Assembly: GCF_010211765.1 (NCBI RefSeq) | Contig: NZ_PDWO01000004.1 | Span: 186,001-250,000 of the forward strand | Length of the DNA: 64,000 nucleotides | Source: Pseudoxanthomonas kaohsiungensis | Lineage (GTDB): Bacteria > Pseudomonadota > Gammaproteobacteria > Xanthomonadales > Xanthomonadaceae | Reading direction: 5' to 3' | Shown here: in pieces, positions 39,511-50,655 of the stretch | Numbering within the stretch: position 1 is the first letter of the stretch | Layout: each line of letters begins with the position of its first letter | Notes under the pieces: generated by a model | Database searches by the model: none | Told to the model about the DNA's origin: nothing | Seen by the model: only the letters and a program-made list of their open reading frames with translations | Made by a program: the position numbers and the translations under genes

Positions 39511-40101
39511 TCAGTCCTGGCGGCCGTCGCTGTCGCCGTCGTCGTCCGGATCGACCGGACTGTCATCCTGCTGGCCGTTGCTGCCGCCGAGCAGCAGCAT
39601 ACGCAGTTCGCGGAACAGCTCGCGGAAGGCCCGCGGCGGCTTGTTGCGCAGCTTTTCCTCGTTGGCGTTGCGGACCAGCTGGCGCAGGTGCTGGCGGTCG
39701 GCGGCCGGATGCTCCTCCAGCAGTTCGGCCAGCGCGGCGTCGCCGTCGGCCAGCAGGCGCTCGCGCCAGGCTTCGACCCGGTGCATCGCGGCCACTTCCC
39801 GGCGGGCGGCCACGCCATCCTCGTCCAGCGCATCGCGGATCGCTTCGAGCGCCTCGTCGTCCTCGCGCCGCATCTGCTTGGCGAGGAAGGCCAGCTGGCG
39901 CTTGCGGGCGATATGGGCGGTGATCTTCCGGGTGTGCTCCAGGTGCGGCAGCAGGTCTTCGGGGATCGGCAGCTTGGCCAGCTGGGTGGGCGTGAGCGAG
40001 GCCAGCTTCTCCGCCAGCTCCAGCACTTCCAGCGCGTCGCGGCGCTGCTGGCTGCGGCTGGGGGAAAGGAATTCGCCGGTGTCTTCGTCGCGTCCGCGCA
40101 T
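39511..40101 (-). CDS. darP: Ribosome biogenesis factor DarP (YjgA)
   Basis: A 196-residue acidic, helical protein of the DUF615 family: [20 protein letters not shown]-like N-terminus (here [19 protein letters not shown]), [43 protein letters not shown] and a strongly acidic C-terminal tail. DarP aids late 50S assembly. It lies between tldD and pmbA, as in other Xanthomonadaceae and many gammaproteobacteria. Confidence 0.93.
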
Positions 40102-40292
40102 GGGGCTGGGGCTCTGTCGGTTGCCGGGGATTCTACCCGCGACGGCCTGAATTCCGGGTTGGCGGCCCTGGCAGGAGTCCGGCTTGCTGGCGACCGCGAC
40201 CTGTCATGTCCGGCAGGCGCGTCGGGCTACGGCCACGGCAACGACAACGGCAACATCAACGGCGTTGCACGGCAGCGACTCCGGAGGGGGCC

Positions 40293-40395
40293 GCGCCACG
40301 CCAGGGGTGCCGCTTTTCCCGCGGCGGGACGTCCTGTCCCGACGCCGGCGCGGGACATCCATGTCCCGCTTGTCGCGGCACCCCTGGCATGGCGC
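40293..40395 (-). repeat. Palindromic GGA-hairpin element P1
   Basis: Outer arms of 21 nt (GCGCCACGCCAGGGGTGCCGC-type, 20/21 complementary; 40293–40313 and 40375–40395) enclose two hairpins. Read on the minus strand: CGGGAC-ATGGAT-GTCCCG (40351–40368), then CGGGAC-AGGAC-GTCCCG (40325–40341). The hexaloop AUGGAU fits the CsrA/RsmA site ACANGGANGU. Downstream on that strand follow GGCCCCCTCCGGAG and a GTTGC-rich tract (40231–40268). P1 and P2 occupy most of the 537-nt darP–pmbA gap, which has no supported gene. Confidence 0.8.
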
Positions 40396-40460
40396 GTCCT
40401 TCGCGATCGTGCCGGCCGTGGTTTTCGTTTTGCCGCTTGGAACAGCCTGCTGCCTGGGGT

Positions 40461-40568
40461 GGCGGACGGCTTGCCCGTTGCGCGGAACCGTCGGCGCCAT
40501 GGATGGCGCCGTCGAGCCTCCATGGATGGATTCACGGCGTGTTCCGCGCAATGGGCAAGCTGTCCGCC
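40461..40568 (+). repeat. Palindromic GGA-hairpin element P2
   Basis: Outer arms of 28 nt (40461–40488 and 40541–40568; 26/28 complementary) enclose CGGCGCC-ATGGAT-GGCGCCG (40492–40511) and a smaller TCCATGGATGGA (40519–40530). The arms are unrelated in sequence to those of P1, P3 and P4, but the ATGGAT hexaloop is the same. Divergent from P1 with 65 nt between. A T-rich stretch (TTGTTGCTTTCTGATC) follows before pmbA. Confidence 0.75.
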
Positions 40569-40638
40569 CACATCGCATCGATCCGGCGCGGCGCTTGTTG
40601 CTTTCTGATCAAAGACCGAATCTTCCGAGGTGGAACAC

Positions 40639-41994
40639 GTGAACGACATCGTGCATGACGACGACAGCCATGCCCGGCTGGACCGGCTGGCGGAGATCTC
40701 GCAGCGGCTGCTGGCGCGCGCCCGCGCGCTGGGCGCGAGCCAGGCCGAGGTGAGCTGCAGCGAAGAACACGGGCTCAACGTGTCGGTGCGCATGGGCGAG
40801 GTGGAAACGGTGGAATCCACGCGCGACCGCGGCGTGGCGGTGACCGTGTACTTCGGCCAGCGCAAGGGCAGTGCCAGTACCGCCGACCTGCACGAGTCCA
40901 GCCTGGAAGCCACCGTCGAGCAGGCCTGCGCGATCGCGCGCCACACCGAGGACGATCCGGCCGCCGGCCTGGCCGACGCGGCGCTGATGGCGCGCGAGTT
41001 CCCGGACCTGGAGACCTGGCATCCGTGGCGGCTGGACGCGGACGAGGCGATCGACCTGGCGCTGGCCTGCGAGGCGGCCGGCCGCGAGGCCGACGCGCGC
41101 GTGGAGAACTCCGATGGCGCCTCCTTCGGCAGCGGCGGCAGCCTGTCGGTGTACGCGAACAGCCACGGCTTCGTCGGCCGCGAGCGCGAAACCCAGCATT
41201 CGCTCGGGGTGGCCCTGATCGCCGGCCGCGGCGACGGCATGCAGCGTGATGGCTGGTACAGCATCGGCCTGGCACGCGAGGACCTGGAGGCGCCGGTGGC
41301 CATCGGTCGCCGCGCGGCCGAGCGCGCGGTCGCGCGGCTGCAGCCGCGCAGCGCGCCCACCGGCGAGTTCCCGGTGCTGTTCTCGGCCGAGATCGCACGT
41401 TCCCTGGTCGGCCACCTGCTCAACGCCGTTTCCGGCGGTGCGCTGTACCGCCGCGCCAGCTTCCTGCTCGACAGCGTCGGCACCCGGCTGTTCCCGGAGT
41501 GGTTCGACATCGACGAGCGGCCGCTGCTGCGCCGCGGACTGCGCTCGACCGCGTTCGACGCCGACGGCGTCGCCACCCGCGACAGTGCGCTGGTGGCCGG
41601 GGGCGTGCTCCAGCGCTACGTGCTCGGCGCCTACTCGGCGCGCAAGCTGGGCCTGCAGACCACCGGCAATGCCGGCGGCGTGCACAACCTGCAGGTGGGG
41701 GCCAACGCCGGCACCCAGGACGAGCTGCTGCGCGGCATGGGTCGCGGCCTGCTGGTGACCGAGCTGATGGGGCAGGGCGTCAACGGCGTGACCGGCGACT
41801 ACTCGCGCGGCGCGGCCGGCTTCTGGGTCGAGGACGGCGCGCTGGCGTATCCGGTCGACGAACTGACCATCGCCGGCAACCTGCGCGACATGTTCGCCCG
41901 GATCGAAGCGGTCGGCAGCGAGGTCGACCCACGCTCGCACATCCGCACCGGGCCCATCCTGGTGGGGCGCATGACCGTTGCCGGCGGCGAATGA
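40639..41994 (+). CDS. pmbA: TldE/PmbA metalloprotease subunit
   Basis: A 451-residue partner of TldD without the HExxxH motif, as expected. Conserved segments include GASQAEVSCSEEHGLNVSVRMGEVETVE, DSVGTRLFPEWFDIDERPLL and TGNAGGVHNLQV near the C-terminus. The GTG at 40639 is chosen because GAGG lies 8 nt upstream; a GTG at 40630 overlaps that site. Confidence 0.95.
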   Translation: MNDIVHDDDSHARLDRLAEISQRLLARARALGASQAEVSCSEEHGLNVSVRMGEVETVESTRDRGVAVTVYFGQRKGSASTADLHESSLEATVEQACAIARHTEDDPAAGLADAALMAREFPDLETWHPWRLDADEAIDLALACEAAGREADARVENSDGASFGSGGSLSVYANSHGFVGRERETQHSLGVALIAGRGDGMQRDGWYSIGLAREDLEAPVAIGRRAAERAVARLQPRSAPTGEFPVLFSAEIARSLVGHLLNAVSGGALYRRASFLLDSVGTRLFPEWFDIDERPLLRRGLRSTAFDADGVATRDSALVAGGVLQRYVLGAYSARKLGLQTTGNAGGVHNLQVGANAGTQDELLRGMGRGLLVTELMGQGVNGVTGDYSRGAAGFWVEDGALAYPVDELTIAGNLRDMFARIEAVGSEVDPRSHIRTGPILVGRMTVAGGE

Positions 41995-42075
41995 CGTATG
42001 CTCGGGCGTGAGGCGTCGAGGGAGTCGGCGCCGATTCCGTCACCAAGAGAACGCCACCGCAAAGGGGATCAGGCA

Positions 42076-42486
42076 ATGAGCGAATTCGAGACGTACACCG
42101 CGCCACCGCCGGCGCCGCAGGAAGAATCCAGCCGCGAGGAACGGCAATGGGCGCTGTTCGGCCACCTGTCGGCCTTGACCGGGTTGTTCACCGGCGGCGT
42201 CGGCAACATCGTCGGCCCGCTGGTCATATGGCTGGTTAAGAAGGACTCCATGCCCTTCGCCAGCGACCAGGCCAAGGAAGCGCTGAACTTCAACATCACC
42301 CTGCTGATCGTGGGCGTGATCCTGTTCCTCATCACCCTGGTGACCTTCGGCATCGGCGTGATCGTGACCGCGCCGCTGGGCCTGCTGGTGTTCATCGCCT
42401 GGCTGGTGCTGACGATCATCGCCGCGGTCAAGGCCAACGACGGCATCGCCTACCGGTATCCGTTCGCGCTGAGGCTGGTCAAGTAG
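42076..42486 (+). CDS. DUF4870 family small membrane protein
   Basis: A 136-residue protein. A polar Pro-rich N-terminus (APPPAPQEESSREERQWALFGHLSAL) is followed by three hydrophobic segments (about residues 35–55, 72–96, 98–120). The DUF4870 signature FASDQAKEALNFNITLLI is present. Function unknown. GGATCAGG precedes the ATG. A strong terminator follows. Confidence 0.85.
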   Translation: MSEFETYTAPPPAPQEESSREERQWALFGHLSALTGLFTGGVGNIVGPLVIWLVKKDSMPFASDQAKEALNFNITLLIVGVILFLITLVTFGIGVIVTAPLGLLVFIAWLVLTIIAAVKANDGIAYRYPFALRLVK

Positions 42487-42515
42487 TTCCAGGCGACTGG
42501 CGGCAAGCGATACGC

Positions 42516-42552
42516 GCGGGGCCCGGAGCGATCCGGGCCCCGCTTCGTTCTG
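42516..42552 (+). terminator. Terminator of the DUF4870 gene
   Basis: A 12-bp perfect stem (GCGGGGCCCGGA and its complement) with a GCGA loop, followed by TTCGTTCTGT. It lies before the convergent ispA stop. Confidence 0.75.
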
Positions 42553-42572
42553 TCCGTGGATGTCGCGGCGGA

Positions 42573-43448
42573 TCAGTGCGAGCGGCGGACCGCCAGTTCG
42601 CCCAGCGCGGCCAGCGCGGCGGCGCGCGCGCCGAATGGGGCCAGCGCGTCGCGCATGGACGTGGCCAGTTCCCCGAGCCGGGCGCGCGCGCCGTCCATGC
42701 CCAGCAGCGCCGGATAGGTGGACTTGGCCTGGGCCACGTCCTTGCCGGCGGTCTTGCCCAGCTGTTCGGAGCTGGCTTCGATGTCGAGCAGGTCGTCGCG
42801 GACCTGGAAGGCCAGGCCGAATGCGGCGGCGAACGTGTCCAGGCGGGCGAGGGTGTCTTGATCGGCGTCCGCCGCCAGCGCGCCCATCCGCACCGCGGCG
42901 CGGACCAGCGCGCCGGTCTTGAGCGAGTGCATGCGCTGCAGTTGCGCCAGTGCCTGGGTGTGGCCGGTGGCATCGATGTCCAGCGCCTGGCCGCCGCACA
43001 TGCCGGTCGCGCCGGAAGCGGTGGCCAGCGCGTCGACCCAGTCGATCCTCAGCTGCGCCGGTGCCTCGGCGCGCGCCAGCGCCGAGAACGCCAGGGTCTG
43101 CAGCGCGTCGCCGGCCAGGATCGCGGTGGCCTCGTCGAAGGCCACGTGCACGGTGGGCTGGCCGCGGCGCAGGTCGTCGTCGTCCATCGCCGGCAGGTCG
43201 TCGTGGACCAGCGAATAGGCGTGGACCAGTTCCACTGCCGCCGCCGGCGCGTCGAGCAGCGCTTCGGCGGCGCCCAACGCGGTGCCCGCCGCGTAGACGA
43301 GCAGCGGGCGCATGCGCTTGCCGCCGCCCAGCGTGGCATGGCGCATCGCCGCGTGCAGGCGGCGCGGCTCCAGCGAGGGATCGGGCAGCAAGCGGTCCAG
43401 CGTGGCTTCGGTGCGCGCCGCCCAGCGCGCGAAGGCCTCACTGCCCAT
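42573..43448 (-). CDS. ispA: Farnesyl/geranyl diphosphate synthase
   Basis: A 291-residue trans-prenyltransferase making C10/C15 prenyl diphosphates from IPP and DMAPP. First Asp-rich motif [14 protein letters not shown] (near residue 83), second [23 protein letters not shown] and the product-size region [11 protein letters not shown] fit short-chain synthases. Overlaps xseB by 11 nt, the usual xseB–ispA arrangement. dxs does not follow here. Confidence 0.95.
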
Positions 43449-43695
43449 CGGGACCGGCGAAGGGCTGGGCGCTGTCGGGCTGTTCGGGGTCGGTGAGCAG
43501 GCGCACGCGCAGTTCGGCCTGTTCCAGCGCGGACTGGCAGCGGCGGTAGAGGCCGACGCCGCGCTCGTAGGCGGCCAGCGAATCCTCCAGGCTCATCTCG
43601 CCCTGTTCCATCTTCTCGACCAGCTGTTCCAGCTCGTCCAGCGAGTGCTCGAACTGGGCGACCGGCGAGGCGTCTTGGGGGGCTTTCTTCGGCAT
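43438..43695 (-). CDS. xseB: Exodeoxyribonuclease VII small subunit
   Basis: An 85-residue helical protein: [40 protein letters not shown], the standard XseB core. It pairs with XseA (not in the window) in exonuclease VII. It overlaps ispA. A CACACT lies 6 nt before the ATG on the coding strand, a weak leaderless-type signal. Confidence 0.95.
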
Positions 43696-43743
43696 GCGCG
43701 AAGTGTGCGCGGTGCGACCGGGAGGGTCAACGCGCGGCGCGGT

Positions 43744-45069
43744 TCACGCCGGCGGTTGCCAGGCCAGGTGCCAGCCGCGGGCATGCAGCCAGCGGGCCAT
43801 GTCGTCGGCCCAGGCGATGTCGCCGGCCGCCAGCAGGCGGCCGTCGGCCGCGGACAGCAGCGGCAGGTGCGCGCGCCGCCACGGGGCCACGCCGCGCTCC
43901 TGCAGCACGTGCTTGAGCAGGTGCGAGTGGCTGCGGCCGGGCAGGACGATGCGCTCGCCGCCGCGCCGGGCATGGACGCGCAGCGGCGCGTCGAAGCCGC
44001 CGGTCGCCGTGCCGTGGTCGTCGCGCAAGAGCAGCCGTCCACCGTCGGGCAGGGCCAGCGGGGTGCGGCCGTCCCACTCGGTCTCCCAGCCTGGCGACAG
44101 CGGGGCGCGGAGGGTGTCGGCATGCAGGAAGTCGCGCCAGCGCAGCACCCGCGCGCCGGCCCAGGCGAAGCGGGCGTCGGCGTCGGCGCGGGCATGCAGC
44201 AGCTCGCCCTCGATCCGCTCCACGCCGTGCGCCGGCAGTGGCGGCAGTTCGAGCGTGCGGATCCAGTGGCGCAGCAGCCGCGCGCGCCGCGCGGCAGGCA
44301 GCGCCATCAGGGCCGGCACGCGCAAGGTGCGCGGGTCGTCGCCGGCATGCATCCGCAACAGCGCCGCGTCCTCGTCGGCCAGCAGCGCGTCGGCCTGGGC
44401 GCACAGCGCCGCGCTGCGCGCCAGCGACGCGGCCGCGTGCGGCCAGCGCTCCTGCAGCAGCGGCAGCACCTGCAGGCGCAGAAAGTTGCGGTCGGCGTCG
44501 GCGACCGCGTTGCTGGGATCGTCGATCCAGGCCAGGCCGTGGTCCTGGGCATAGGCCTGCAGGGCGCCGCGCGGCAGCGCCAGCAGCGGCCGCCAGTGCC
44601 AGCCGGGGCCGAGCTGCCGCAACGGGCGCATCGCGCCCAGGCCCTCGGGCCCGGAGGCGCGCAGGGCGCGCAGCAGGAATGTCTCGGCCTGGTCGTCCCG
44701 GTGATGCGCGGTCGCCAGCACCTCGCCGGGGGCCATGGTCGAGGTCAGCGCGGCGTATCGGGCCTCGCGCGCGGCCGCCTCCGGCCCGCTGCCGCCGTCG
44801 CGTGGTACCGCCACGCGCAGCACCTGCAGCGGCACGCCCAGTGCACCGGCCTGTTGTTCGCAGTGGTTCGCCCAGGCGTCCGCGGCGGCCTGCAAGCCGT
44901 GGTGGACGTGCACCGCGCGCAGGCCGCGCGCGCGCATCGCCGGCTCGGCGGCTAGCCGGTGCAGCAACACGGTCGAGTCGAGGCCGCCGCTGTAGCCGAC
45001 CACCAGCGCGCCGGCCGTTTCCACCGGAAGCGCGGGCAGGGCGAGGGGGCGGGCGTCTGCGGTGTTCAT
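43744..45069 (-). CDS. tilS: tRNA(Ile)-lysidine synthase
   Basis: A 441-residue enzyme converting C34 of tRNA-Ile(CAU) to lysidine. PP-loop SGGLDS at residues 27–32, then VHVHHGLQAAADAWANHC, ATAHHRDDQAETFLLR and, at the C-terminus, the TilS anticodon-binding domains (LRVHARRGGERIVLPGRSHS). Two more in-frame ATGs lie at 45075 and 45102; none has a clear ribosome-binding site, so the start is uncertain by up to 11 codons. Confidence 0.94.
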   Translation of the reverse strand: MNTADARPLALPALPVETAGALVVGYSGGLDSTVLLHRLAAEPAMRARGLRAVHVHHGLQAAADAWANHCEQQAGALGVPLQVLRVAVPRDGGSGPEAAAREARYAALTSTMAPGEVLATAHHRDDQAETFLLRALRASGPEGLGAMRPLRQLGPGWHWRPLLALPRGALQAYAQDHGLAWIDDPSNAVADADRNFLRLQVLPLLQERWPHAAASLARSAALCAQADALLADEDAALLRMHAGDDPRTLRVPALMALPAARRARLLRHWIRTLELPPLPAHGVERIEGELLHARADADARFAWAGARVLRWRDFLHADTLRAPLSPGWETEWDGRTPLALPDGGRLLLRDDHGTATGGFDAPLRVHARRGGERIVLPGRSHSHLLKHVLQERGVAPWRRAHLPLLSAADGRLLAAGDIAWADDMARWLHARGWHLAWQPPA

Positions 45070-45121
45070 CACCATGGAGCCAGGTGCGCAGGGATCGGCC
45101 ATGCGGCCGCCGCCGGCGCGT

Positions 45122-45301
45122 TCAACGCACCTGGCGCCAGATCACCACCAGCGCCGAGATCCAGCACACGGCGACGAACCAGGCCAGCACGTAGTTGGGA
45201 TTGGTCGGACGGTGCCGGAACAGGCGGTTCACGATCACCGCCACCAGCAACGGCACCAGGAACAGCGCCAGCGGCAGGGCCCAGCCGGGCAGTGCGCTCA
45301 T
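45122..45301 (-). CDS. 59-residue two-span membrane protein
   Basis: A frame starting MSALPGWALPLALFLVPLLV and ending VVIWRQVR. Two hydrophobic segments (residues 7–25 and 39–54) flank a basic loop (NRLFRHRPTNPNYV). A strong GGAGG lies 7 nt before the ATG and the gene fits snugly between accA (82 nt) and tilS (53 nt). No family recognised. Too short for many gene callers; the ribosome-binding site and clean membrane topology support it. Confidence 0.7.
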   Translation of the reverse strand: MSALPGWALPLALFLVPLLVAVIVNRLFRHRPTNPNYVLAWFVAVCWISALVVIWRQVR

Positions 45302-45382
45302 GAGCGGTCCTCCGGGTCACGGGCGGGGCGGGACGGCGCGCGGGCGCGGCCCTTGCCGGGCCACGCCACCCCGAACGGCGTA

Positions 45383-46342
45383 CTAGGCCGCCTCGTACGC
45401 GCCATAGCCGTGCAGGCGCGCATAGCGGCGCTGGACGAGCTCGGCGGCCGGGATCTGCGCCAGCGCGTCGAGTTCGTTGAGCAGCACGGCCTTGAGCCGG
45501 CGCGCCATCTGCCGCGGGTTGCGGTGCGCGCCGCCGGTCGGCTCGCGCACGACCTTGTCGACCAGGCCCAGCCCGTGCAGGCGCTTGGCGGTCAGGCCCA
45601 GCTGCTCGGCCGCGTCCTTGGCCTTGCCGGCATCCTTCCACAGGATCGAGGCGCAGCCTTCGGGCGAGATCACCGAATAGGTGCTGTACTCGAGCATCAG
45701 CGTGCAGTCGCCCACGCCAATGGCCAGGGCGCCGCCGGAGCCGCCTTCGCCGATCACGGTGCAGATGATCGGCACCTTCAGCTCGGCCATCTCCAGCAGG
45801 TTGCGGGCGATGGCTTCGGATTGGCCGCGTTCCTCGGCGTCGATGCCCGGCCAGGCGCCGGGGGTGTCGATGAAGGTCAGGATCGGCAGGCGGAAGCGCT
45901 CGGCCAGCTTCATCAGGCGCAGGGCCTTGCGGTAGCCCTCGGGCTTGGGCATGCCGAAGTTGCGGCGGATCTTCTCCTTGGTATCCCGGCCCTTCTGGTG
46001 GCCGATCACCACGACCGGGCGGCCGTCGATGCGGGCCAGGCCCCCGACGATCGCCTTGTCGTCGGCGAAGGCGCGGTCGCCGGCCAGTTCCTGGAACTCG
46101 TCGCAGATCACCCGGACGTAATCCAGGGTGTACGGACGGGCCGGATGGCGGGCGAGCTGGGAGACCTGCCAGGAGGACAGGTCGCGGAAGATCTGGGCGG
46201 TGCGCTTGCGCAGCTTGTCCTGCAGCGCGTGCACTTCGGCGTCCACGTTGACGGCCGGGCCGGTGCTGGCGTTGCGCAGTTCCTGGATCTTGGCTTCCAG
46301 GTCGGCGATGGGCTGCTCGAAATCGAGGTAGTTCGGGTTCAT
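45383..46342 (-). CDS. accA: Acetyl-CoA carboxylase carboxyltransferase alpha subunit
   Basis: A 319-residue subunit that, with AccD, transfers CO2 from biotin to acetyl-CoA in fatty acid synthesis. Starts [20 protein letters not shown]; contains [39 protein letters not shown] and the oxyanion-hole region [16 protein letters not shown]. Length and ends match the family. The next gene downstream is the small membrane protein, then tilS. Confidence 0.97.
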
Positions 46343-46463
46343 CCGTTGGCCGGCGATGCCGGGGAGTGCAGTGGCCCGGAAGTGTAGCCGAACGCCCCCG
46401 GCGGGACCGGACCGTACGGTATGGAGGAGGGGTCGGTGCGCCGCATCGGGGTTGGCGGCCTGA

Positions 46464-46529
46464 GCCAAGGCAAGGCGAAAGCCGAAGCCAAAGCCGAAGC
46501 GTGGGCCAAGGCCAAAGCCAACGCCGAAG
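46464..46529. repeat. GCC(A/G)AA hexamer-type tract beside P3
   Basis: A stretch of imperfect 6-nt periodicity (GCCAAG, GCGAAA, GCCGAA, GCCAAA, GCCAAC). On the minus strand it lies just 3' of element P3. Comparable GTTGC-rich tracts lie 3' of P1 (40231–40268) and P4 (47020–47055). Confidence 0.5.
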
Positions 46530-46557
46530 ACGGGGCACGGCTCCGGACGGGGCCGCC

Positions 46558-46655
46558 GTCCCATGGGGGCATGGCTTACCCCTCGGGCGGACGTCCTGTC
46601 CGTACGAGGGGCCGTGGCACATCCCTGTGCCACTTGCGCCATGCCCCCATGGGAC
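46558..46655 (-). repeat. Palindromic GGA-hairpin element P3
   Basis: Perfect 18-nt outer arms (GTCCCATGGGGGCATGGC and its complement; 46558–46575, 46638–46655). An inner stem CCCCTCG/CGAGGGG (46579–46585, 46605–46611) encloses hairpin II. Read on the minus strand: GTGGCAC-AGGGAT-GTGCCAC (46614–46633), then CGGAC-AGGAC-GTCCG (46588–46602). CACAGGGATGTG matches the in-vitro CsrA consensus ACARGGAUGU. The 3' flank GGCCCCGTCCGGAG is nearly that of P1. Confidence 0.82.
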
Positions 46656-46740
46656 GACGTCCTCGGGTGTCGGCGGGGTCGTGGCTTCGATCGAAGCGCG
46701 AGAGCTCAGGCAGCGCGTGGGTTGAATGCGCAGCGCTCTC

Positions 46741-46819
46741 GTAGAGCGGGGCTTGCCCCGCTGCTCTCTGATGGGCCGGGACCATGGCGGGGAAAGCAGC
46801 GGGGCAAGCCCCGCTCTAC
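46741..46819. repeat. Inverted pair of GTAGAGC-type REP palindromes
   Basis: GTAGAGCGGGGCTTGCCCCGCTGC at the left and its complement (GCAGCGGGGCAAGCCCCGCTCTAC) at the right. Each is itself a hairpin; together they form a 79-bp nested palindrome. It lies between P3 and P4 in the 737-nt accA–dnaE gap, which holds no supported gene. Confidence 0.88.
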
Positions 46820-46889
46820 GGGAAAGCCATCGCGGGTACGGGAAGCGCGGAAGAACGAAGCATCGACCCTGAAGGGTCGCCGAAGACGT

Positions 46890-46989
46890 GGCAGGCATGG
46901 GGTGTCGCGGCAGTGGGCCATGGATGGCCCACGTCACCGCGTCCGGACAGGACGTCCGGCCGCGGGGACCGCGACACCCCATGCCTGCC
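46890..46989 (+). repeat. Palindromic GGA-hairpin element P4
   Basis: Perfect 21-nt outer arms (46890–46910 and 46969–46989; left arm starts GGCAGGCATGGGGTG). Inside, on the plus strand: GTGGGCC-ATGGAT-GGCCCAC (46913–46932) and CCGGAC-AGGAC-GTCCGG (46943–46959). After the right arm comes GGCTCCCGCCGGAGCC, a short hairpin, then a T-rich GTTGCTGTTGCTGTCTT, which could end a transcript. Divergent from P3. Confidence 0.82.
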
Positions 46990-47079
46990 GCGGCTCCCGC
47001 CGGAGCCGGGGCCCCTGACGCCGTTGCTGTTGCTGTCTTGGCCGAAGCTGTAGCAGGCAGTGCCCGGCGGATCCGTCGC

Positions 47080-50000
47080 TCAGTTCGCCCAGGGACGGCC
47101 GATGGCCACCTTCACCGCGCGCACGCCGGGCTGGGCGCGCAGGGCGTCGAGCAGCGGCGGGGCGATGCGCACCGAGTTGCTGCCGTTGAGGTCGAGCACG
47201 CCGGTCGCGCCGTCTTGGCCGGGCCGGCCCACCTGCAGGTGCAGGCGCAGTGGCGTGGGGCCGGGGCGATGGCGGGCCAGCACCGCGTCCACGCGCTGCC
47301 AGGCGCCCGGGTCGCGCAGGTCCAGGCGCAGCGACAGCCGCTGCGCGTGCTGCGCGCACAACTGTTCGTAGTCCCAGGCCGCCTTCAGGCGCAGGCTCCA
47401 GCCGCCGTTGAACTCGTCCTCGCGCAGGCCGCCCTGCACCACCAGCACGCGGTCGCGCACCAGCAGGCTGGACAGGTCGGCGGCCGCCTCGGCGAACACG
47501 CCGCATTCCAGCCGGCCGCGGCCGTCCTCCAGCTGCACGAATACCTGGCTGTCGCCCTTGCGGCGGATGCCGACCACCAGTCCGGCCACCACCACCTGCA
47601 CTTCCGGCCGCCAGCCGCGCTTCTCGCCTTGCGGCGCGGCGCCCCACAGGCGGTCCAGCTCGCCCAGGTCCGAGCCGACCAGCTGCCGCACTTCCTCGCG
47701 GTAAGGGTCGAACGGGTGCCCGCTGAGGTAGTGGCCGAGCGTGTCGCGCTCGCCGTCCAGCAGCTGCCGCAGCGGCCATTCGTCGGCTTCGGGCAGGTCC
47801 AGTTTCAGCGCCGGGCCGCCGCTGTCGCCGGACGGCATGCCGAACAGCGAGACCTGGCCGGCGGCCGCCTCCTTGGCCATCTGGTCGGTAGCCTTGACCA
47901 CCTCGGGCAGCTGCAGCATCAGCGTGGCGCGGTTGCGGCCCAGCGCATCCAGTGCACCGGCGTTGATCATCGCTTCAAGCGCCCGGCGGTTGAGCTTGGT
48001 CGAGTCCACGCGGCGGCAGAAATCGAGCAGGTCGGCGTAGTCGCCACCCTTGTCGCGCTCGGCCACGATCGCTTCGCACAGGCCGCGGCCCACGCCCTTG
48101 ATCGCGCCCAGCCCATAACGGATGGTGTCGGCGGCCACGGCCTCGAACATGAAAGGCGAATCGTTGACCGTCGGCGGCAGGATGGTCAGGCCCAGCCCGC
48201 GGGCTTCGTTGAGGAAGCCGACCACCTTGTCGGTGTTGTCCATGTCCGAGGACAGCGTGGCGGCCATGAATTCGGCCGGGTAGTGCTTCTTCAGCCACGC
48301 GGTCTGGTAGGCAACCAGCGAGTAGGCGGCGGCGTGCGACTTGTTGAAGCCGTAGCCGGCGAACTTCTCCATCAGGTCGAAGATCTCGTCGGCCTTCTTC
48401 TCGCCGACCCCGCCCCTGGCCGCGCCCTCGCGGAAGATCTCGCGGTGCTTGGCCATTTCCGCCGGCACCTTCTTGCCCATCGCCCGGCGCAGCAGGTCGG
48501 CGCCGCCCAGCGAGTAGCCGCCGACGATCTGCGCCATCTGCATGACCTGCTCCTGGTAGACCATGATGCCGTAGGTCTCCTCGAGCATCGGCTGCGTGCG
48601 CGGGTCCGGATAGGAGAAGTCCTCCTGGCCGTGCTTGCGCGCGACGAACGACGGGATCATCTCCATCGGGCCGGGGCGGTACAGCGCGTTCAGCGCGATC
48701 AGGTCCTCGAAGCGGTCGGGCTTGGCGTCCTTCAGCGCGCGGCGCATGCCGGAGGATTCGAACTGGAACACCGAGCCGGTGTTGCCGTTGGCGAAGATGT
48801 CGCGGTACACGCTGGCGTCGTCCAGCGGCAGCGTGGCGATGTCCAGCGGCGGGATGCCGGCGCGGGCGTGGCGTTCGTTGATCGCCTTCACCGCCCAGTC
48901 GATGATCGTCAGCGTGCGCAGGCCGAGGAAGTCGAACTTGACCAGGCCGATCGCCTCGACGTCGTCCTTGTCGAACTGGGTGACCGGGTTGCGGCCCAGG
49001 CCGTCCTGGTCGTGTTCGGCGAACAGCGGGCAGAAGGTGTGGAGTGGTTCTGGCGCGATCACCACGCCGCCGGCGTGCTTGCCGGCGTTGCGGGTCAGGT
49101 CCTCGAGCTCGCGCGCCAGGTCGATCAGGTCGCGCACGTCCTCCTCGGCGCCGTAGCGCTGGATCAGCTCGGCCGAGGCCATCTCGCTGTCCTTGCCTTC
49201 GCCCATCGCGTCCTTGAGCGTGATGCCCAGGATGTTGGGGATCAGCTTGGCCACGCCGTCGACGAAGCCGTACGGGAAGCCGAGCACGCGGCCGGTGTCG
49301 CGCACCACCGCCTTGGCCGCCATGGTGCCGTAGGTGATGATCTGGCTGACCCGCTCGCGCCCGTACTTGCGCGCGACGTAGTCGATCACCTCGTCGCGCC
49401 GGTCCATGCAGAAGTCGATGTCGAAGTCGGGCATCGACACGCGCTCGGGGTTCAGGAAGCGCTCGAACAGCAGGTTGTACGGGATCGGGTCCAGGTCCGT
49501 GATCTGCAGCGCCCAGGCCACCAGCGAGCCGGCGCCCGAGCCGCGGCCCGGGCCGATCGGGATGCCGTGGTTCTTACCCCACTGGATGAAGTCGGCCACG
49601 ATCAGGAAGTAGCCCGGGAAGCCCATCTTGCAGATGGTGTCCAGCTCGAAGTCCAGGCGCTCGACGTAGTCCTGGCGGGTCTTGCCCTCGGCCAGCGGAT
49701 TCTTCGCCAGCCGCGCCTCCAGGCCGTCGTGGGCCTGCTTGCGGATCCAGCTGTCCAGGGTCTCGTCCGACGGCACCGGGTAGGCCGGCAGCGCGTACTT
49801 GCCCAGGGTCAGTTCCAGGTTGCAGCGCCGCGCCAGCTCGACCGTGTTGGCGATCGCGTCGGGCACGTCGGCGAACAGCGCGGCCATCTCGCCGGCCGAC
49901 TTCAGGTACTGCTCGTCGCTGTAGTCGCGCGGGCGCTTGGGGTCGTCGAGCACCCGGCCGGAAGCGATGCACACGCGCGCCTCGTGCGCGTCGAAGCCGG

Positions 50001-50655
50001 ACTTGTCCAGGAAGCGCACGTCGTTGGACGCCACCACCGGAATGCCGCGCGCGCCCGAGGCGTGCAGGGCGAACGCGTTGAACGCCTCCTCGCCGTCGCG
50101 GCCGGTGCGCACCAGTTCCAGGCACAGGTTGCCGTCGAAGGCGCGCTGCCAGTCGGCCAGCTGCTGCTCGGCCAGGTCATGGCGGTGTTCGGCGGCCAGC
50201 CGGCCGGCCAGGCTCTCGCGCCCGGCCAGCAGGACCAGCCCTTCGCCGCAGTCCTTGATCCACGCCGGCGTCACCACCACCCCGCCTTCGGCGCGATGGC
50301 CTTCCATCCAGGCCCGAGTCAGCAGCCGCGACAGGTTGAGGTAGCCGCGGTGGTCGCGGCACAGCGCGGTCAGGCGCCAGGGCGCCTCGCCCGGTCCCGC
50401 GGCCACCGCCAGGTCGGCGCCGGCGATGGGCTTGATGCCCACGGCCTCGGCCGCCTTGTAGAACTTGATCAGGGCGAACAGGTTGTTGAGGTCGGTGACC
50501 GCCAGCGCCGGCAGCCCCAGTTCCACCGCGCGGCTGAGCAGGTTGGGCTGCTTGGCCTTGGCCGGATCGGCCTGCTCGGGTTTTTCGGGCACGCGGATGG
50601 TCGAGTCCGCAAGCGAAAACTCGGTATGGACGTGGAGGTGGACGAAGCCGGACAT
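47080..50655 (-). CDS. dnaE: DNA polymerase III alpha subunit
   Basis: A 1191-residue replicative polymerase. The PHP domain starts at FVHLHVHTEFSLADS (H6, H8, H10 of the metal site). The palm has PDFDIDFCMDRRDEVI with two catalytic Asp; the third is in KFDFLGLRTLT. GPGRGSGAGSLVAW and FGFNKSHAAAYSLVAYQT-type (here YGFNKSHAAAYSLVAYQT) blocks follow, then the OB-fold (VVVAGLVVGIRRKG). Length is normal. ATG chosen by family alignment; TACCCT lies 9 nt before it. It is divergent from the DUF418 gene. Confidence 0.98.
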   Translation of the reverse strand: MSGFVHLHVHTEFSLADSTIRVPEKPEQADPAKAKQPNLLSRAVELGLPALAVTDLNNLFALIKFYKAAEAVGIKPIAGADLAVAAGPGEAPWRLTALCRDHRGYLNLSRLLTRAWMEGHRAEGGVVVTPAWIKDCGEGLVLLAGRESLAGRLAAEHRHDLAEQQLADWQRAFDGNLCLELVRTGRDGEEAFNAFALHASGARGIPVVASNDVRFLDKSGFDAHEARVCIASGRVLDDPKRPRDYSDEQYLKSAGEMAALFADVPDAIANTVELARRCNLELTLGKYALPAYPVPSDETLDSWIRKQAHDGLEARLAKNPLAEGKTRQDYVERLDFELDTICKMGFPGYFLIVADFIQWGKNHGIPIGPGRGSGAGSLVAWALQITDLDPIPYNLLFERFLNPERVSMPDFDIDFCMDRRDEVIDYVARKYGRERVSQIITYGTMAAKAVVRDTGRVLGFPYGFVDGVAKLIPNILGITLKDAMGEGKDSEMASAELIQRYGAEEDVRDLIDLARELEDLTRNAGKHAGGVVIAPEPLHTFCPLFAEHDQDGLGRNPVTQFDKDDVEAIGLVKFDFLGLRTLTIIDWAVKAINERHARAGIPPLDIATLPLDDASVYRDIFANGNTGSVFQFESSGMRRALKDAKPDRFEDLIALNALYRPGPMEMIPSFVARKHGQEDFSYPDPRTQPMLEETYGIMVYQEQVMQMAQIVGGYSLGGADLLRRAMGKKVPAEMAKHREIFREGAARGGVGEKKADEIFDLMEKFAGYGFNKSHAAAYSLVAYQTAWLKKHYPAEFMAATLSSDMDNTDKVVGFLNEARGLGLTILPPTVNDSPFMFEAVAADTIRYGLGAIKGVGRGLCEAIVAERDKGGDYADLLDFCRRVDSTKLNRRALEAMINAGALDALGRNRATLMLQLPEVVKATDQMAKEAAAGQVSLFGMPSGDSGGPALKLDLPEADEWPLRQLLDGERDTLGHYLSGHPFDPYREEVRQLVGSDLGELDRLWGAAPQGEKRGWRPEVQVVVAGLVVGIRRKGDSQVFVQLEDGRGRLECGVFAEAAADLSSLLVRDRVLVVQGGLREDEFNGGWSLRLKAAWDYEQLCAQHAQRLSLRLDLRDPGAWQRVDAVLARHRPGPTPLRLHLQVGRPGQDGATGVLDLNGSNSVRIAPPLLDALRAQPGVRAVKVAIGRPWAN

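Follow-up and report, generated by a model that had tools for sequence, protein, structure and literature searches.

TwoAYGGAY-like head-to-head palindromes of Pseudoxanthomonas kaohsiungensis as candidate RsmA/CsrA-binding dispersed repeats

The window analysed here, a stretch of 64,000 nucleotides from the 3.76-Mb draft genome of Pseudoxanthomonas kaohsiungensis (G000:C44:186001-250000), contains four palindromic elements, e1–e4, in each of which a long outer stem surrounds two GGA-loop hairpins, an architecture that resembles the TwoAYGGAY RNA motif (Rfam RF01731, clan CL00106). The elements are the arms of two head-to-head units and belong to a repeat family present in tens of copies in this genome. 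On balance, we favor the interpretation that they are TwoAYGGAY-like dispersed repeats that place predicted RsmA/CsrA-type sites in read-through transcripts. In the open-licence literature, preprints aside, no description was found of these elements, of TwoAYGGAY pairing, or of CsrA-binding dispersed repeats.

Three of the elements, e1, e3, and e4, form one family, termed type A, and a covariance model, R1, was built from seven type-A copies; e2 represents type B, which follows a like plan in unrelated sequence. Element e1 lies on the minus strand at 40293–40395 (R1 match at 40288–40402, 100.9 bits), with its outer stem around hairpin I (40350–40369, loop ATGGAT) and hairpin II (40325–40341, loop AGGAC). 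Element e2, on the plus strand at 40461–40568, has a conserved core with two ATGGAT loops, one in hairpin I (40492–40511) and one in the short-stemmed hairpin II (40519–40530), between locus-specific complementary arms of 28 nt. On the minus strand at 46558–46655, e3 (foot CGAGGACG; R1 match at 46550–46665, 123.0 bits) carries hairpin I at 46614–46633 with an AGGGAT loop and hairpin II at 46588–46602 with an AGGAC loop. Element e4 (foot CGAAGACG; R1 match at 46881–46996, 111.5 bits) occupies 46890–46989 of the plus strand, with hairpin I at 46913–46932 (loop ATGGAT) and hairpin II at 46943–46959 (loop AGGAC). A first-pass annotation of this DNA had described four palindromes at these positions, each around two GGA-loop hairpins, with ATGGAT in loop I of three and AGGGAT in one, and AGGAC in loop II of three, and this description is confirmed. 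The four had also been treated as a single palindrome family with paired GGA hairpins, which holds for the plan and fails for e2, a member of a second, sequence-unrelated subfamily. That separate subfamily, the copy number, and the fixed head-to-head pairing were overlooked.

The GGA strands of e1–e4 fold with z-scores of −8.5, −9.3, −10.0, and −9.0 (200 dinucleotide shuffles each, none of which equals the native fold). The opposite strands also fold well (z of −7.6, −7.7, −9.5, and −9.2), and the two strands are therefore not told apart by fold energy alone. When both strands of the window are scanned for A(N)GGAN-loop hairpins with a perfect stem of at least 5, all seven hairpins found fall inside the four elements, compared with a mean of 1.5 and a maximum of 4 in 30 dinucleotide shuffles. 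Chance palindromes are ruled out by the shuffled fold energies, this hairpin count, and the covariation described next.

A search with R1 under strict filters returns 79 matches in the genome of P. kaohsiungensis; another R1 listing, which includes complementary-strand echoes, holds 94. When the fetched stretches are searched more closely, 84 rows result, equal to 82 places and 79 distinct sequences (two of the five rows removed as repeats are one place fetched twice), and the rows from other genomes reduce from 78 to 70 (five repeats, three incomplete). Across the 79 distinct copies, 96.9% of structure cells are paired, compared with 69.7% when shuffled and 35–50% when slid, and 762 cells are changed on both sides compared with 200 in the shuffled set; these alignments are fitted to R1, which favors the structure of R1. 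The proposal that structure is conserved over sequence thus extends from the four elements to the whole set, and the covariance-model search suggested with it finds homologues whose stems covary strongly. GGA is retained in both loops of 78 of the 79 copies. The C, A, G, and G of loop I are invariant in 79/79 and the neighboring N varies, such that loop I reads CATGGATG in 44 copies and CAGGGATG in 28, with different forms in the remaining 7; it conforms to AYGGAY in 45/79 and to AGGGAY in 30/79, and loop II is often 5 nt long. The loops take the form C-A-(N)GGA-(U/C)-G. Orthologous sites give the same picture. In the gap between the YjgA (DarP) and PmbA genes, four species have one type-A arm in common, in which 14 of 41 pairs show double changes (0–2 when slid), and in the type-B orthologues of P. 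kaohsiungensis and the congener G004, both partners differ at 11 of 28 outer pairs, and each arm has 26 of 28 pairs in Watson-Crick form.

The strand on which this pairing is maintained is indicated by the mismatches. Were DNA palindromy the sole property maintained, the GGA strand should show as many G.T as A.C mismatches. With outer arms of the R1 hits paired without reference to R1, and with G.U and A.C both scored as mismatches, the outer stems of the 79 copies contain 109 G.U and 1 A.C on the GGA strand, and the 70 distinct copies from other genomes, which have no sequence in common with the first set, contain 96 and 4. Three positions account for 60 of the 109 G.U pairs, so that the count is inflated by inheritance; the remaining 49 versus 1 are equally one-sided. 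The other outer-stem mismatches in the P. kaohsiungensis copies are A.G/G.A (86), G.G (4), C.C (3), and T.T (1). RF01731 elements show the same direction (G.U 38 versus A.C 7, n = 41), as do the type-B copies of a 5.1-Mb genome of the class, G288 (63 versus 15 in 47 rows with noisy arms and two places counted twice; the 30 loci were picked by plus-strand matches, with one overlap). These counts argue that the fold is maintained on the GGA strand, whether in RNA or, possibly, in single-stranded DNA, and that one strand is under selection, most simply as RNA. The comparison of G.U with A.C provides a simple means to separate one-strand selection from DNA palindromy in other repeat families, and it extends a G.T argument made, in the text consulted, for repetitive extragenic palindromic (REP) sequences (PMC3733652).

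In the sense direction, a type-A arm is composed of an inner motif (GATCGAAGCCACGACCC or like), a foot of the form CGARGACG, the outer stem, in which an A.G mismatch lies close to the foot, hairpins I and II, and the returning outer stem, past which lies CGGCGGCCC or GCCGCGGCTC and then TCCGRAGCCGACGC. Several type-A copies have hexamer runs such as GGTTGC beyond the outer foot; in the window, hexamer-type runs (CAACGG, GCCAAA, GTTGCT) lie just outside the elements at 40240–40275, 46460–46540, and 47020–47050. Arms that form a pair are arranged head to head, and a spacer of 58–497 nt separates their oppositely oriented inner motifs. By inspection, the inner motifs of the window are a degenerate one for e1 at 40414–40429 (minus strand; GGCCGTGGTTTTCGTT on the plus strand, family form GGTCGTGGCTTCGATC), one for e3 at 46676–46692 (minus strand; GGGTCGTGGCTTCGATC on the plus strand), and, inverted relative to the latter, one for e4 at 46853–46869 (plus strand; GAACGAAGCATCGACCC). 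Between e3 and e4, at 46737–46823, lies an inverted pair of GTAGAGCGGGGCTTGCCCCGCTGCTC, presumably a GTAG-type REP pair. Type-A neighbors less than 700 nt apart in P. kaohsiungensis number 31 in (−,+) order, 2 in (−,−) order within one tandem array, and none in (+,−) order; close neighbors on opposite strands are therefore head to head in 31/31 cases here, and they are so in 26/26 in the fetched stretches of other genomes. The close type-B neighbors of G288, where copies are mostly single, comprise six (+,+) cases (one counted twice), one (+,−), and one (−,+). As judged by inspection, the two arms of one unit often differ in subtype, in either orientation, and in the genome G125 (L195–L205) whole units of ~450 nt are visible, with an extra terminal hairpin, inverted outer ends of the AAAAAGTCACCAAAAAATACTC type, and two arms of different subtypes.

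Unit 1 (e1 and e2, 40288–40568) is located between a DarP/YjgA gene (39511–40101, minus strand) and a PmbA gene (40630–41994, plus strand), and unit 2 (e3 and e4, 46550–46996) between accA (45383–46342, minus strand) and the DNA polymerase III alpha gene (47080–50655, minus strand), as named from Pfam matches. With a simple gene caller, element clusters overlap no predicted gene. The 50 gene intervals that hold elements are convergent in 22 cases, co-directional in 25, and divergent in 3, compared with 8, 47, and 30 for 85 element-free intervals of at least 60 nt (Fisher p of 8e-6 for convergent and 7e-5 for divergent). Unit 1 is one of the three divergent cases, and unit 2 lies between co-directional genes.

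Taken together, these observations suggest that the elements form pairs of arms within an intergenic repeat dispersed in the genome, every arm being a TwoAYGGAY-like structured RNA. The units, mostly located by gene 3′ ends, would probably be transcribed by read-through from flanking genes; as the arms point apart, a transcript reading through a unit, whichever its direction, would include one sense, GGA-bearing arm. This arm would most likely bind one RsmA/CsrA dimer through its two loops, in which case the bound arm could mark or protect the 3′ region of the mRNA, and the tens of copies together could act as a distributed RsmA sink. A CsrA-domain gene is present in 17/17 genomes of the genus, and the A(N)GGA loops resemble two motifs quoted in PMC7652899, namely the CsrA consensus RUACARGGAUGU from systematic evolution of ligands by exponential enrichment (SELEX) and CAGGA(U/A/C)G, the repeat of CsrB. 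As a separate observation, P. kaohsiungensis has two extra CsrA-domain loci (G000:C77:5027-5185 and 40009-40161), and 15 of 16 congeners have one match and one, G014, a split match.

Several results weigh against this interpretation. The two-hairpin fold of e2 is not the lowest-energy fold of its GGA strand. In hairpins I and II, G.U cells (0 and 2) do not outnumber A.C cells (3 and 2); being nearly free of wobble, the two hairpins leave the strand asymmetry to rest on the outer stem. The copies share kinship, so the cells are not independent. The element stems are G+C-rich and longer than the SELEX hairpins, which mostly have ≤4 base pairs; in the cited passage, very stable structure is named as a possible disadvantage (PMC7652899). 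The genomes G009 and G010 have CsrA and no element, which makes the elements dispensable. For a read-through transcript, the sense arm is the distal one. Seventeen type-A copies of P. kaohsiungensis have no recognizable partner, and a simple arm scan of 18 rows, in which a type-B pair (L084) is included, detected beside none of the 17 a further element with paired GGA loops. In 11 spacers of G125, a genome of even GC to which the promoter scan was limited, no outward sigma-70 promoter rises above mononucleotide shuffles (mean z of −0.5 and −0.4). For this reason a free small RNA (sRNA) is unlikely in G125, and the absence of outward promoters where they are best visible is the basis for proposing read-through. 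Finally, at a relaxed threshold the RF01731 model gives only one match in 12 loci with 26 type-A copies, at 42.1 bits against a cut-off of 43 and aligned over the outer stem and both hairpins, and none is listed at 40200–40650, where e1 and e2 lie, up to an E value of 10.

The distribution of the family bears on its history. Within the genus, all genomes but G009 and G010 have R1 matches (15 of 17, with 3–89 each). Matches are also present in three of the eight other genera examined in the family, and the 16 genomes taken from elsewhere in the order have none. A pattern that covers one element subtype finds 55 stretches in named genomes, 52 from Pseudoxanthomonas and 3 from other metagenome bins, in a collection that may omit the P. 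kaohsiungensis genome itself. The type-B core pattern reaches further, with matches in at least 34 of 369 genomes of the class and no control match among the matches listed; G288 alone has at least 141 + 133 type-B core copies, or at least 209 + 203 (412, with up to one mismatch) by a slightly different pattern. Within the genus, the YjgA (DarP)–PmbA gap has a strong R1 match in 4 of 17 genomes and is ~528 nt long here, compared with ~84–251 nt in the 13 without a match there, and the dnaE–accA gap is ~740 nt here and ~92 nt in G004. Flanks at the compared gaps are too diverged for exact insertion junctions or target duplications to be recovered. The G005 and G012 gaps hold apparent deletion remnants, seen by inspection, so that absence of the element can also mean loss. 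In the dnaE–accA gap of G002 (L134) and G011 (L133), tandem arrays of GTAGGAGC...GCTCCTAC repeats are observed, in G011 within the head-to-head spacer. Because copy number and place differ between species, the units are probably mobile or formerly mobile DNA as well. A broader proposal, which we advance only tentatively, is that they belong to a class-wide mobile repeat of TwoAYGGAY type, whose two outward arms are putative RsmA/CsrA-binding RNAs and whose copies near 3′ ends, numbering tens and, for the mostly single type-B core of one genome, hundreds, would form a distributed sponge and tie many mRNAs to the regulator. If the RsmA/CsrA interpretation is right, how strongly a global regulator acts would vary with the repeat copy number of a genome, and the repeats would supply it with new targets.

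The main rival, which we consider unlikely, is that the folds serve in DNA transposition. The folds would be read as single-stranded DNA by a transposase, HUH/RAYT-like (RAYT, REP-associated tyrosine transposase) or other, with the GGA loops as contacts and the arms as the ends of a non-autonomous mobile unit, much as REP folds have been proposed to be recognized by a transposase in single-stranded form. The range of 0–89 copies within one genus, the presence or absence at orthologous gaps, the fixed (−,+) pairing, and, as seen by inspection, the mixed arm subtypes in either orientation and the inverted outer ends in G125 would all be expected. G.T pairs better than A.C in single-stranded DNA too. 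No unit has been found with a gene of its own, however, and an autonomous transposon between wide arms is rejected on the sole wide pair read (L209), which holds ADP-ribosylglycohydrolase and MscS-type channel genes and no transposase. A RAYT as the mover is disfavored as well, as the number of Y1/RAYT genes has no simple link to that of elements: G005 has no such gene and 14 elements, and G010 has two genes and no element. The GTAG/CGTC tag is absent from the stem foot by inspection, and the likeness of the loops to a CsrA site would have to be a coincidence.

It is less likely still that the elements are ordinary 3′-end structures, hairpins that stabilize or terminate the transcripts of flanking genes without RsmA. 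They are indeed placed by gene 3′ ends, as are the REPs for which a similar G.T argument appears in the cited text (PMC3733652), and they form very stable folds on both strands. For such a function any hairpin sequence would serve, yet the GGA loops are nearly invariant while the stems change, and one strand is favored. An absence of selection on the fold, with template switching or gene conversion between arms preserving complementarity and the loops reflecting common origin, would suit arms that are locus-specific, highly complementary, and, in type B, changed at 11/28 pairs between two species, but it is very improbable, as such a process is strand-neutral, whereas G.U exceeds A.C by 109:1 and 96:4, which counts against its simplest form, and GGA stays while the adjacent N and the stems vary.

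Among known systems, REP/BIME/REPIN sequences with their RAYTs are similarly dispersed intergenic palindromes, often in inverted pairs and mostly by convergent or co-directional genes, as described in the text consulted (PMC3733652). The window elements differ in having a nested structure of ~115 nt rather than 20–40 bp and in their two GGA hairpins. None of the 84 rows inspected has a GTAG/CGTC tag at the stem foot, which is mostly of the CGARGACG type, with a mean arm of 27 nt. Within the genus, 15 of 17 genomes have a PF01797 (Y1 transposase) match, with no simple correspondence to element number. The YPAL/RU-2 and Ysr224 (RF02770) sequences of Yersinia are also large intergenic palindromes. 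Ysr224 matches type B on the strand opposite the GGA loops at 34.3 bits (E of 3.4e-6 in a 451-nt search), and a second match, also on a strand that lacks the GGA loops, scores 29.4 bits; both are far under its cut-off of 70. YPAL, compared here by description rather than sequence, is given as 168 bp with target duplications of 3–26 bp (PMC2229807). The sRNAs of the CsrB/RsmZ/RsmW type and RsmU of Xanthomonas have in common with the window elements GGA loops and paired sites for a dimeric protein; the elements differ in being dispersed in tens of copies with two sites per arm. According to the portion of the report cited, RsmU is processed from a 3′ untranslated region and binds RsmA, and RsmA binding persisted in vitro for an RsmU mutant altered at four GGA sites, with a complex that migrated lower in the gel (PMC7694677).

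TwoAYGGAY is the closest in plan, with a long outer stem around two hairpins of the A-Y-GGA-Y type. In the window elements, a 5-nt AGGAY loop is frequent in hairpin II, the N of loop I is often G, and stems and flanks differ in sequence. The parallel drawn in the first-pass annotation is sound as a likeness of plan, whereas in score the window copies fall below the RF01731 gathering value: an Rfam search of the window returns no family at gathering cut-off, and RF01731 gives no match in the whole P. kaohsiungensis genome at an E value of 0.001 under strict filters. As no window copy attains the cut-off, the elements are by these scores named TwoAYGGAY-like rather than members. TwoAYGGAY itself, for which the sources, in the parts seen, propose sequestration of CsrA (PMC4333381) and, in a 2010 survey, a probable RNA that is probably not cis-regulatory (PMC2864571), is found in 17 of 274 genomes of the class, 13 of them above the cut-off. 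Among the matches listed, ten genomes have 6–30 each, and close pairs, which occur in four of these ten, have the head-to-head order in all but one of 21 cases (20 of 21; the odd pair is in G197). By crude longest-open reading frame calls, 10 of the 17 units with both neighbors called lie between convergent frames. These comparisons shift the view of TwoAYGGAY from the cis-regulatory entry type that it has in Rfam to that of an often paired, multi-copy intergenic repeat.

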